64,000 nt of DNA from a virus. Under the pieces are notes generated by a model. The model did not search any database, had not been told where the DNA came from, and worked only from the letters and a program-made list of their open reading frames with translations. The number at the start of each line of letters is the position of its first letter. The stretch's first letter is position 1. Shown here one piece after another: positions 8,452-27,786 of the stretch. Position numbers and translations under genes: made by a program. The DNA is taken from IMG/VR virus record IMGVR_UViG_3300025789_000031, positions 1 to 64,000 of that record. One strand, written 5' to 3'.

Positions 8452-8528
8452 GGTTCCGTCGTCTAACTGGATAAGGCCCCCGACTTCTAATCGGGTAAGT
8501 GCAGGTTCGAATCCTGCCGGGACCGCCA
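8452..8528 (+). tRNA. tRNA-Arg (TCT), copy 1
   Basis: Acceptor GGTTCCG/CGGGACC, loop CTTCTAA, T-arm GCAGG-TTCGAAT-CCTGC, discriminator G, encoded CCA. Confidence 0.95.
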
Positions 8529-24986: not shown

Positions 24987-25015
24987 TTGACATTGGTTTA
25001 AACTTGTAGTATAGA
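24987..25015 (+). promoter_or_regulatory. Sigma70-like promoter
   Basis: TTGACA, 17 bases, TATAGA, just before the tRNA-like element at 25024. Confidence 0.68.
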
Positions 25016-25023
25016 ATAAAAAT

Positions 25024-25112
25024 GGCAGTATAGCTCAGTTGGCTGGGGGTCAAGTGACCGGACTTCTCTCATAAGGAAGTTTAGATGGGGGCAGTACCCA
25101 TACCAGCTACCA
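25024..25112 (+). tRNA. Degenerate tRNA (CAT loop)
   Basis: A D-arm-like AGCTCAGTTGG, an anticodon arm CTTCT-CTCATAA-GGAAG (CAT) and a T-stem ATGGG/CCCAT are visible, ending in CCA. The T-loop reads GGCAGTA rather than TTCRANY and the acceptor is imperfect. It may be a decayed tRNA-Met or a divergent one. Confidence 0.45.
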
Positions 25113-25115
25113 GAT

Positions 25116-25242
25116 TTAAACAGTATGTTAGGCTAATCGCAACAAAAGACTGTGGGTTAAGCACTAAGTTCCCCGCCCATAGATTGAGAACCCATTCGGG
25201 AGAATCTGATTCTCATGATTAGAATTGGGGTGTGCTGTTTAA
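25116..25242 (+). ncRNA. Structured RNA closed by an 8 bp helix
   Basis: TTAAACAG pairs with CTGTTTAA across 127 nt. Inside are CTGTGGG/CCCATAG and GAGAA/TTCTC hairpins. Not coding. It lies between a tRNA-like element and a promoter. Confidence 0.5.
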
Positions 25243-25249
25243 TAAAGTG

Positions 25250-25277
25250 CTTGACATGCACTTTGATATAGAGTATA
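25250..25277 (+). promoter_or_regulatory. Sigma70-like promoter
   Basis: TTGACA followed by TATAGAG and TATAAG candidates at suitable spacing; precedes tRNA-Asp. Confidence 0.6.
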
Positions 25278-25299
25278 AGAAGATATACAAATAGTTTTC

Positions 25300-25374
25300 G
25301 GAGGTGTAGCTCAAAGGAAGAGCACTGGTCTGTCTAACCAGAGGTTGCGATGTCAGGATTCGTCATCTCCGCCA
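25300..25374 (+). tRNA. tRNA-Asp (GTC), altered T-arm
   Basis: Acceptor GGAGGTG/CATCTCC, stem CTGGT/ACCAG around CTGTCTA, discriminator G, encoded CCA. The T-arm is GCGA..TTCGT around TGTCAGGAT, lacking TTCRANY, so this copy may be impaired or specialised. Confidence 0.82.
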
Positions 25375-25443
25375 TACTATTTCTGTGAGGATTTCTTTGA
25401 TTTTCATGAGATTATTTATCACAATTTAAAATGAAAATAGTTC

Positions 25444-25472
25444 TTGACACCATGTTTGGTCTTTGATATAAG
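25444..25472 (+). promoter_or_regulatory. Sigma70-like promoter
   Basis: TTGACA, 17 bases, TATAAG, upstream of the gene at 25499. Confidence 0.75.
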
Positions 25473-25498
25473 GGGACATAAGCAAAGAGGATAACAAA

Positions 25499-25705
25499 AT
25501 GTCTACTGAACTTAAAGGAACGAACTCACTCAATGGTGAAGTTCTGCTGAATCGCTACTTTGGTGGTTCAGAGAATGGAACTTGCATTCAGGTTACTCCA
25601 ATGGGCGGAAATCCATATTTGTCTCTGAGCAAGACGCAAGCACTTGAATTGGCTGCTGCATTGATTGAATTTGTCAATGGAACTCGCGAAGAGAAGGGAG
25701 ATTGA
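25499..25705 (+). CDS. Hypothetical protein, 68 aa
   Basis: Driven by the promoter at 25444. Beta-rich centre (CIQVTPMGGNPYLSLSKTQA) and an Ala-rich helix. No family recognised. Confidence 0.75.
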   Translation: MSTELKGTNSLNGEVLLNRYFGGSENGTCIQVTPMGGNPYLSLSKTQALELAAALIEFVNGTREEKGD

Positions 25706-25708
25706 GAG

Positions 25709-25825
25709 ATGATTATTGGTATTAACTTTTCAACACTGATTGAAATCTTCTTTTGGGGATGGATCAGTGGCATTATCACTGTTGGTGCAGTGTGGTATCG
25801 CTTTCATAAAAAGAAGATTAAGTAA
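25709..25825 (+). CDS. Single-pass membrane peptide, 38 aa
   Basis: GGGAG lies upstream of the ATG, and the frame starts 4 bases after the preceding stop. Residues 8-30 are hydrophobic and aromatic (IEIFFWGWISGIITVGAVWY) with a basic HKKKIK tail, a typical inner-membrane micropeptide. Confidence 0.65.
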   Translation: MIIGINFSTLIEIFFWGWISGIITVGAVWYRFHKKKIK

Positions 25826-25833
25826 AAAAGTTC

Positions 25834-25862
25834 TTGACAACGGTTACGAACTTTGATATACT
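25834..25862 (+). promoter_or_regulatory. Sigma70-like promoter
   Basis: TTGACA, 17 bases, TATACT. It serves the gene at 25891 and probably the giant RNA that follows. Confidence 0.72.
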
Positions 25863-25890
25863 GAGTTTATCAAGACAGGAGAAAGAGATT

Positions 25891-26058
25891 ATGAATAATA
25901 TGTTCAATATGTTTCCAGCGAATCTTTCTAACAAGCAGATGCTTGAAGAACTGGCTAAGCGGACCGGTGGGATTCCTGACTTTGCGAAGGAAGCACTCAA
26001 GAAAGCAGGTGTTAACGCCAAAGACGTTGACGATGCTGATACTCTTGGTCGCAAGTAA
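25891..26058 (+). CDS. Hypothetical protein, 55 aa
   Basis: The start has CAGGAG upstream. Helical protein (LSNKQMLEELAKRTGGIPDF). No family recognised. The giant structured RNA begins right after its stop. Confidence 0.72.
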   Translation: MNNMFNMFPANLSNKQMLEELAKRTGGIPDFAKEALKKAGVNAKDVDDADTLGRK

Positions 26059-26061
26059 TAA

Positions 26062-26650
26062 CGGGCGAAAGACTGCCCCGGTATATGTTTAAAGGTGCTT
26101 AATGCCGCACTCGCAAGAGAATGTGGTTCAGGGATGCTCGCAAGGCAGACGAAGGATAGATGGTCGAGTAGACATATGCGACGAGTCAACCGTGCACTCA
26201 TCTGATAAGTATAAAAGAATTGGGGGCATAGCCTCATTATAGGGTAAGACCGAGCAATCGGTCCCAAAGCAAGGTTTCCTATAAACTTGCGCCAGTAAAA
26301 TGGTCCATCTATGCAAGCACGAACTACCCGAAAGGGCTGTCTGTAGAATGGCAGTAGGTAGTAAGTCAGGTGTATCGTCCTGAAAGGGATAGTCTACAGA
26401 GCCACATCGGTGAGTAGGCAAGAGGGTTGGCGCTCTCGCGGTATACAGCCAAACTGACGAATACTGAAGGTTAACGTGTAGTTATTGAGTCTGACCCTGC
26501 AAGGAAAGGCAAGATAGCAATACAAGTGAGGAAGGGATAACCGGAATCGTGAAGTATGATTGAGTATCCCGCAAGGAGAAAGATACTAGGTGTGTGGTAT
26601 TCCGTATCTAACAAGGTATGGAGCAACTGGAGCAGCACATCTTCGTAGGT
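26062..26650 (+). ncRNA. Giant ornate RNA, copy A, about 590 nt
   Basis: No gene fits. The stretch is full of short GC helices capped by GNRA-type loops (CTC-GCAA-GAG, CCC-GAAA-GGG, CCT-GAAA-GGG) and GGGC/GCCC, CGGTAT/ATGCCG pairings. It lies among tRNAs, the setting of GOLLD and ROOL RNAs of phages, which it resembles in size and style; family membership was not tested. Copy B at 26728 shares the 5' domain. Confidence 0.7.
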
Positions 26651-26724
26651 TCGCAAATAACTCAGCGGTAGAGTAATCCACTTCTAATGGATCGGCTTAG
26701 GTTCAAATCCTAATTTGATAAACA
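26651..26724 (+). tRNA. tRNA-Arg (TCT), copy 2, damaged acceptor
   Basis: Anticodon stem ATCCA/TGGAT around CTTCTAA and T-arm TTAGG-TTCAAAT-CCTAA are perfect. The acceptor TCGCAAA/TTTGATA has two mismatches and the 3' end reads ACA, not CCA. It sits between the two giant RNAs. Confidence 0.72.
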
Positions 26725-26727
26725 AAA

Positions 26728-27060
26728 GCGAAAGACTGCTCCGGTATATGTTTAAAGGTGCTTAATACCGCACTCGCAAGAGAATGTGGTTCAGGGATGC
26801 TCGCAAGGCGGAACTGATTGATCGGAAAGATAGCGTAGGTTCTTAGCGGAACCGAACTGCTCGCAAGGCAGACGAAGGATAGATGGTCGAGTAGACATAT
26901 GCGACGAGTCAACCGCCAGACTCTAAAAATGGCAGCATTGAGTGATACTAGATGACTGTAAAAGGCTCTAGTGGATAACGGTAGAACGCTCCTCGCAAGG
27001 GACGCGGTAATGACCAAAGGCACTCGTTCAATCCCGTAATCTCAGGGTTGGTATAACTAG
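26728..27060 (+). ncRNA. Giant ornate RNA, copy B, about 330 nt
   Basis: The first 90 bases repeat copy A almost exactly (GCGAAAGACTG, GTATATGTTTAAAGG, CTCGCAAGAGAATGTGG). Copy B then has about 60 bases that copy A lacks, between two copies of TGCTCGCAAGGC. It rejoins copy A (CAGACGAAGGATAGATGG) and finally diverges with its own 3' domain. Confidence 0.65.
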
Positions 27061-27076
27061 ACTAAATAATATTAGA

Positions 27077-27176
27077 CTATTTTGATGAATAATGATCTAT
27101 TACGAACTAGACGTAAGGCGCTAGATGGTATGAAAATCAGGCCCAGAACTTGAACGATCATTGTTCATCTAAATAG
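27077..27176 (+). ncRNA. GATGAAYA-family RNA, member 5
   Basis: A 21-position helix: CTATTTTGATGAATAATG.. pairs with ..CATTGTTCATCTAAATAG with one mismatch and one T-G wobble. Inside, TTACG-aactaga-CGTAA looks like an anticodon arm. It is followed directly by TTTAG. Confidence 0.6.
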
Positions 27177-27285
27177 TTTAGCAGTCCCTTAGCGGGGGAG
27201 CCAGTTGGAGCGGATCATTCTTCGGTAACCAACAAACGGTCACATAGCCCAAGAGTAAGAGAATGTGAGGGGCTATACTGTTAAA
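27177..27285 (+). ncRNA. Structured RNA closed by a 9 bp helix
   Basis: TTTAGCAGT pairs with ACTGTTAAA (one G-U); ATAGCCC/GGGCTAT and CACAT/ATGTG lie inside (the latter an alternative). Non-coding, between two other RNA genes. Confidence 0.45.
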
Positions 27286-27294
27286 AAGTTTAAT

Positions 27295-27369
27295 GCGTCG
27301 GTGGCAGAGTATTCATGCACTTGCCTGCAAAGTAAGGGGACGTTGGTGAAAATCCAACTCGGCGCTCCA
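27295..27369 (+). tRNA. tRNA-Cys (GCA), copy 2
   Basis: Acceptor GCGTCGG/TCGGCGC, loop CTGCAAA, U73, encoded CCA. The T-arm GTTGG-TGAAAAT-CCAAC has a non-canonical loop. Confidence 0.82.
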
Positions 27370-27380
27370 AAGTTTAATAT

Positions 27381-27459
27381 CGTGGGGTAGAGGAGTCTGG
27401 TCGTCCTCGCTGGTCTCATAAGCCGGAAATCGTCGGTTCAAATCCGACCCCCGCAACCA
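27381..27459 (+). tRNA. Initiator tRNA-fMet (CAT)
   Basis: The first base C faces A72 (CGTGGGG/CCCCGCA), the mismatch that marks initiator tRNAs. Loop CTCATAA, T-arm GTCGG-TTCAAAT-CCGAC, ACCA end; overall very like bacterial tRNA-fMet. Confidence 0.92.
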
Positions 27460-27471
27460 GTTTCTTAGGTG

Positions 27472-27543
27472 GCTACTGACCTCCTACTGATGCTTCGGGT
27501 CAGAGGTGACTTGCACAACTCGCAAGTCTGATAAATGAGTAGC
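27472..27543 (+). ncRNA. Three-way-junction RNA, 72 nt
   Basis: GCTACT/AGTAGC closes two hairpins, CTGACC/GGTCAG and GACTTGC-acaactc-GCAAGTC. All three are perfect. Non-coding, between tRNA-fMet and tRNA-Gly. Confidence 0.5.
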
Positions 27544-27551
27544 AAAATAGT

Positions 27552-27625
27552 GCGGGTATGGTATAGGGGTTGTGCCTCAGCCTTCCAAGCTGAAGAGACC
27601 GGTTCGAACCCGGTTACCCGCTCCA
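27552..27625 (+). tRNA. tRNA-Gly (TCC)
   Basis: Acceptor GCGGGTA/TACCCGC, stem TCAGC/GCTGA around CTTCCAA, U73, encoded CCA. Confidence 0.93.
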
Positions 27626-27636
27626 TCCCTTAAACA

Positions 27637-27697
27637 AATTCACATACTCAGCAATGAGCGAAAAAATAGACGAAAAAATGTGGGCGTTATGTGAATT
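27637..27697 (+). other. 9 bp inverted repeat
   Basis: AATTCACAT pairs with ATGTGAATT across 61 nt upstream of the outer-membrane protein gene. Possible mRNA structure; no terminator T-run. Confidence 0.35.
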
Positions 27698-27786
27698 GTG
27701 CATTGTGAACTGCTGTCAAAGACGATAAATGATGGACCCAATCTATTGCAGGACACATGCGTTTAAACTCTAAAATAGGAACTCTA

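Follow-up and report, generated by a model that had tools for sequence, protein, structure and literature searches.

The GOLLD locus and its features

The DNA analysed here, referred to as the window, is a stretch of 64,000 nucleotides that belongs to an 85,755-base virus record, and 36 tRNA genes are predicted in the window. The locus under study, which we compared with GOLLD loci on other virus contigs (L and G numbers; these contigs are fragments), consists of the following features.

25834-25862, + strand: sigma-70-type promoter TTGACA-17-TATACT, the conserved GOLLD promoter (11/12 consensus match)
25892-26059, + strand: putative 55-codon ORF with AGGAG upstream (sequence)
26065-26192, + strand: copy A, a partial GOLLD post-linker core of 128 nt, minus 60 nt (GOLLD match, alignment to 26728-26915)
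26193-26210, + strand: orphan 3' strand of the 5'-terminal clamp helix (TGCACTCATCTGATAAGT), matching the clamp 3' strand of L047/L175/L178
26211-26586, + strand: GOLLD 5' domain (~376 nt; 74-87% identity, directly 5' of the 3' domain in relatives)
26587-27048, + strand: GOLLD 3' domain (full Rfam model 1-416, 191.3 bits)
26627-26635, + strand: 5' strand of a long-range helix (CTGGAGCAG), pairing with 26736-26744
26650-26723, + strand: linker tRNA-Arg(TCT) (Rfam tRNA 56.4 bits; ARAGORN)
26650-26654 / 26728-26732, + strand: short tRNA-grafting helix TTCGC / GCGAA (co-occurrence in relatives)
26728-26915, + strand: copy B, the intact GOLLD post-linker core (Rfam model match, alignment to A)
26736-26744, + strand: 3' strand of the long-range helix (CTGCTCCGG; covariation), with the counterpart CTGCCCCGG in copy A at 26073-26081
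26798-26857, + strand: 60-nt segment of B that is deleted in A (sequence alignment)

One GOLLD RNA with an internal tRNA

The first-pass annotation had read this region as two tandem RNAs of the GOLLD and ROOL style, separated by a damaged tRNA-Arg. We found that a GOLLD-type RNA does lie here within a phage tRNA array, as the full-length match to the GOLLD model is well above the gathering cut-off of 150 bits. The ROOL part of the proposal was dropped, since the Rfam ROOL model gave nothing at its gathering threshold in the window and nothing in 25000-27700 at E<=1. The sequence ahead of the model match represents the 5' domain of the same RNA: in more than 15 relatives, a counterpart of 26211-26586 is located directly ahead of the 3' domain, and the identity range listed above holds for L047, L175, L184, L166, L164, L018, L117, L046, and others. 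Taken as 26194-26586, this segment is 86% identical to L047 and 81% identical to L046/L090, in each case directly before the 3' domain. Both domains are moreover covered by single alignments of ~860-920 columns, starting at 26186-26219, in L175, L184, L166, L164, L179, L158, L018, and others. The ~64 nt preceding the linker tRNA correspond to the start of the Rfam GOLLD model, that is, the first hairpin of the 3' domain.

From the model match and the position of the 5' domain, we conclude that one complete GOLLD extends, by sequence, from about 26211 to 27048 and that the tRNA-Arg is part of its variable linker. The supposed copy A of about 590 nt thereby resolves into 128 nt of duplicated sequence, followed by the 5' domain and the ~64 nt of model start, and the tRNA does not separate two copies. 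The RNA has the features by which GOLLDs are recognized, namely the model score, an upstream region of ~400 nt that is less conserved, an origin in a virus record near tRNA genes, and a variable linker with a tRNA. PHROGs returned no informative phage-type assignment for ten window proteins, and a search for an intrinsic terminator after 27048 found none. Downstream of the GOLLD, the region 27060-27180 has a long inverted repeat (GATGAATAATGATC / GATCATTGTTCATC) and may be a further structured RNA.

In the cryo-EM structure of env-38 GOLLD, the 5' region (1-420) forms the cap and the 3' region (421-833) the ring of the cage, while the linker (497-538) is disordered and faces the cage interior; the closed 14-mer has been shown for env-38 only (Kretsch et al. 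2025, PMC12286853). Rising expression in the course of phage lysis also characterizes the family. The body of the window RNA (26211-27048) is probably transcribed as one from the promoter at 25834-25862. By analogy with env-38, it would, like other GOLLDs, fold as separate 5' and 3' domains and assemble into a multimeric cage.

Copy A is a truncated duplicate of the GOLLD core

The sequence sharing that gave rise to the reading of two RNAs is real: 26065-26192 equals 26728-26915 apart from two substitutions (C at 26077 in A versus T at 26740 in B, and G at 26104 versus A at 26767) and a 60-nt gap. BLAST E-values of 2e-37 and 5e-27 exclude a chance likeness. What the duplication represents is a truncated core copy in front of a single GOLLD. 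The gap is bounded by direct repeats of TGCTCGCAAGGC, just as the first-pass annotation had described. The GOLLD match of A (26065-26180, 49.1 bits) stays below the cut-off and covers only model positions 122-298, as opposed to a complete second match that includes a 5' and a 3' domain of its own. Homology of the left flank of A to the region left of B was considered and rejected as not significant (p about 0.3-0.4).

On the Rfam structure, the closing helix and the first hairpin are kept in A. Of the stem enclosing the next two hairpins, the deletion takes the 5' strands; one hairpin and half of a further stem go with them, so that two core stems are each short of one strand. One pair of the long-range helix is lost through the first substitution; the partner strand of this helix is missing from A anyway. 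These losses look like decay; two substitutions are too few to judge selection. The dense helices proposed initially are not borne out by folding free energy, which is unremarkable for A (z = 0.18) and for the B core (z = -0.30), and an unusual folding energy was thus rejected for both. Our structural evidence is accordingly the covariance-model match and the comparison of relatives, not free energy.

Among 126 loci with a core hit, the extra partial core was present only in the window, and family-model searches over about 125 virus and phage records agree. Neither self-comparison nor nhmmer revealed A-like modules in other GOLLD upstream regions.

Promoter, 5' leader, and clamp helix

The promoter is embedded in a 59-bp element (25824-25882) that also stands upstream of the GOLLD 5' domain in L184 (96.6% identity to L184:65-123), L018 (94.9%), and L176 (91.4%). 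The element is followed by the 5' domain after ~25 nt in L184, L176, and L180, compared to 328 nt in the window, where the interval holds the 55-codon ORF, A, and the 18 nt matching the clamp 3' strand. A is thus located between the GOLLD promoter and the 5' domain, at the place where relatives have ~25 nt or a clamped hairpin. A tblastn search with the ORF against phages and 16 relatives gave no significant match. The + strand between A and the GOLLD body is devoid of promoter-like sites.

A long clamp helix around differing inserts was identified in L047/L175/L178, L018, L158/L166/L179, L164, L147, L149, L154, and L156. The clamp score was reached in 10 of 33 distinct GOLLD loci but in no shuffle and in none of 154 shifted windows. 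The clamp immediately precedes the GOLLD 5' domain, and several of its inserts are tRNA-like; in L158, L166, and L179 the insert is a tRNA-Thr(CGT), the acceptor stem of which is continuous with the clamp. The window retains the 3' strand of this helix, but a search of the window for the 5' partner, allowing up to 3 mismatches, found none.

Further elements lie upstream. Three promoter-like repeats (CTTGACA ... TTTGATATA) at 25241, 25434, and 25824 precede small genes and the GOLLD. The segment 25106-25296 is 95.8% identical to L047:2389-2579, which makes it more conserved than GOLLD itself, and one part resembles a structured RNA that lacks annotation and is flanked by the inverted repeats TTTAAACAGTATG / GTGCTGTTTAA.

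Origin of copy A

We consider it most likely that A is a recombination remnant, presumably without function. At its 3' junction, the core sequence ending in GTCAACCG meets TGCACTC, where the clamp strand starts, and both sides have CCG in common; the counterpart in L047 reads CACCCG followed by TGCATTC. In the order of events that we infer, illegitimate recombination, through tandem duplication or otherwise, would have joined the core end to the GOLLD 5' clamp (CACCCG followed by TGCA), and a fragment of an additional core would have stayed behind in the 5' leader. The 5' domain and the tRNA of the first copy would have been lost after joining, and slippage between the TGCTCGCAAGGC repeats would then have removed the 60 nt from A. 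This scenario is supported by the relatives, which keep the 5' domain directly 5' of the 3' domain without A, by the missing clamp partner and the lost stem strands, and by the occurrence of tandem duplication elsewhere among GOLLDs (L105/G105). Counted against it are the presence of only two substitutions in 128 nt, which means that A is either recent or maintained, the 55-codon ORF of the leader, which the duplication model leaves unexplained, and the lack of a second assembly covering A.

An alternative reading of A is a functional extra module. The 5' leader of this GOLLD clade would in this case serve as a clamp-held slot for RNA cargo, here occupied by a trimmed version of the RNA's own core; this extra core might become part of the cage, or its cap, in the role of a variant subunit. 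The clamp statistics given above speak for such a slot, as do the variable and partly tRNA-like inserts, exemplified by the tRNA-Thr(CGT), and the fact that A occupies the insert position with closing helix and first hairpin retained. However, the slot is open in the window since the clamp 5' strand is gone, two core stems of A have each lost a strand, and A has been seen once. We therefore regard a functional module as unlikely. Slightly less credit still is due to the idea that A arose in assembly or as a chimera between two phage strains. The collection from which the record stems is of the metagenome type, contigs of this phage are broken in the region of A (L123 and L124, both near-identical, start at 26302 and 26721, respectively, which places A outside both), and the patterns of the A deletion junction and 3' junction occur in no other viral contig. 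Yet A has two substitutions of its own, a deletion junction, and a junction on either flank, and such unique sequence would not arise from a simple collapse or a repeat error; an artefact is accordingly rather improbable.

The initial reading, two independent GOLLD-like RNAs in tandem, is by far the least plausible explanation. A second GOLLD match does exist and L105 proves that true tandem pairs occur, but A consists of core only, the sequence following it is the 5' domain of the single GOLLD, and no promoter-like site lies between A and the GOLLD body on the + strand. Overall, a single GOLLD with a tethered linker tRNA-Arg, preceded by module A as a recombination remnant, is in our judgement the probable explanation. 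The best supported mechanism comprises an ordinary GOLLD, a covalently held tRNA body that would not be maturable, and a passenger remnant in the leader. From the partial self-copy it is evident that GOLLD genes undergo recombination and that large inserts are tolerated in their 5' leader; the copy matters less than the tRNA pattern described below.

The linker tRNA-Arg and its flanking helices

The description of the tRNA-Arg as damaged proved correct. All arms are intact, while the outer acceptor pairs are broken, leaving five of seven pairs with two mismatched, and CCA is missing. The tRNA is therefore without the 7-bp acceptor stem and the maturable 3' end of a functional tRNA. It is also not needed for decoding, since the window contains a free tRNA-Arg(TCT) at 8452-8528.

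The long-range helix that flanks the linker is left unpaired in the nested Rfam consensus. It reached a covariation score of 237.5 compared to a permuted maximum of 161.5, with 30 distinct strand pairs. The evidence for the short helix is weak in terms of its score (149.5 versus a permuted maximum of 144.5). TTCGC and GCGAA co-occur in close relatives, where the helix uses the outer acceptor strand, and are replaced elsewhere by TTGC/GCAA or TTTGC/GCAAA. The broken outer acceptor pairs of the tRNA-Arg are probably replaced by pairing with GOLLD sequence, and the tRNA body should consequently stay covalently attached and outside translation. The near-identical contig L124 starts exactly where L047-like linkers diverge (AACAAAAGCG), as would be expected if strains with different linker tRNAs were together in one sample.

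Linker tRNAs across GOLLD loci

A first set of loci was selected largely through a pattern at the 3' end to which the tRNA does not contribute. Seven acceptor pairs were present in none of the 24 linker tRNAs of this set, compared to 101 of 122 free tRNAs from the same stretches, and 22 of the 24 were without CCA. Two further patterns enlarged the set to 65 distinct linker tRNAs, among them those of L011, L018, L047, L148, L162, L164, and L166. A linker tRNA is also carried by the GOLLD of a culturable relative, Phaeobacter phage MD18. Seven acceptor pairs were then found in 2/65 linker versus 850/960 free tRNAs (Fisher p 6e-51), and CCA in 2/65 versus 906/960; these tests ignore phylogeny. 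The T-stem was complete in 62/65, a figure that is partly due to selection because the later patterns require the T-arm, and all five anticodon-stem pairs were present in 53 of 59.

Although the cores of L047, L164, and L166 are 93-95% identical to that of the window, their linker tRNAs are just 64-69% identical to it. Where the arms are at least 90% identical, the anticodon differs in 31 of 46 linker pairs as opposed to 1 of 57 free pairs, with the qualification that pairs are not independent and that ARAGORN favours standard loops. By sequence comparison, the linker tRNA is either exchanged or diversifying fast. The loss of acceptor pairs and CCA, together with the anticodon changes, suggests that linker tRNAs are tethered tRNA bodies that would not take part in translation.

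This pattern is a more interesting clue to the purpose of the cage than the partial self-copy. As the linker tRNA keeps its arms, has its acceptor end almost always disabled, and has an anticodon that turns over far more rapidly than in free phage tRNAs, it provides a testable hint to GOLLD function, namely that the cage presents the tRNA body and not a decoding role. An unusable acceptor end and a changing anticodon loop would fit a decoy, possibly directed against tRNA-attacking host defences. Relaxed constraint on a loop that is no longer decoding would also give the anticodon pattern. We put forward only tentatively, and with considerable doubt, the wider idea that GOLLD cages display tethered, unmaturable, and unchargeable tRNA bodies with fast-changing anticodon loops as decoys for host tRNA-cleaving or tRNA-modifying enzymes, and that RNA modules are taken up at the linker and at the clamped 5' slot, in the window a trimmed version of the own core.

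Comparison with known systems

With ROOL, the locus shares the character of a large ornate phage RNA near tRNAs (PMC12286853), although the window is without a ROOL match above threshold. Mycobacterial GOLLD resembles it in having a tRNA-like sequence inside the GOLLD and a large tRNA cluster; its internal pseudo-tRNA is not detectably expressed on its own. It belongs to another lineage, however, and no partial core copy has been reported there (PMC6582537).

The array of the IMG/VR contig L105/G105 likewise includes a pair of GOLLD-related units, and a linker tRNA-Arg(TCT) is present in the second. In contrast to A, both copies match the full model, the first at 164.4 bits and the second at 129.1 bits, which is below 150, and they are strongly diverged and lie 1.3 kb apart (L136 = G105:18500-23500). 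Two GOLLDs are also found in G030, about 16 kb apart, and phage XacN1 has two identical-scoring copies, consistent with its long terminal repeats. The novelty initially seen in a tandem arrangement therefore has to be narrowed: the RNA matches a described family strongly and L105/G105 has a full tandem pair, while a partial self-copy like A was found nowhere else.

GOLLD itself (RF02032), a giant RNA capable of forming hollow cages, of which 806 nonredundant sequences have been reported (PMC12286853), is the closest known system. The window RNA shares with it the full-length match above the cut-off, the 5' domain and universal 3' domain, the phage tRNA array, and the linker tRNA; tRNAs within GOLLD linkers have already been mentioned (PMC12286853). 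The window differs by the partial core copy and the 55-codon ORF between promoter and 5' domain.
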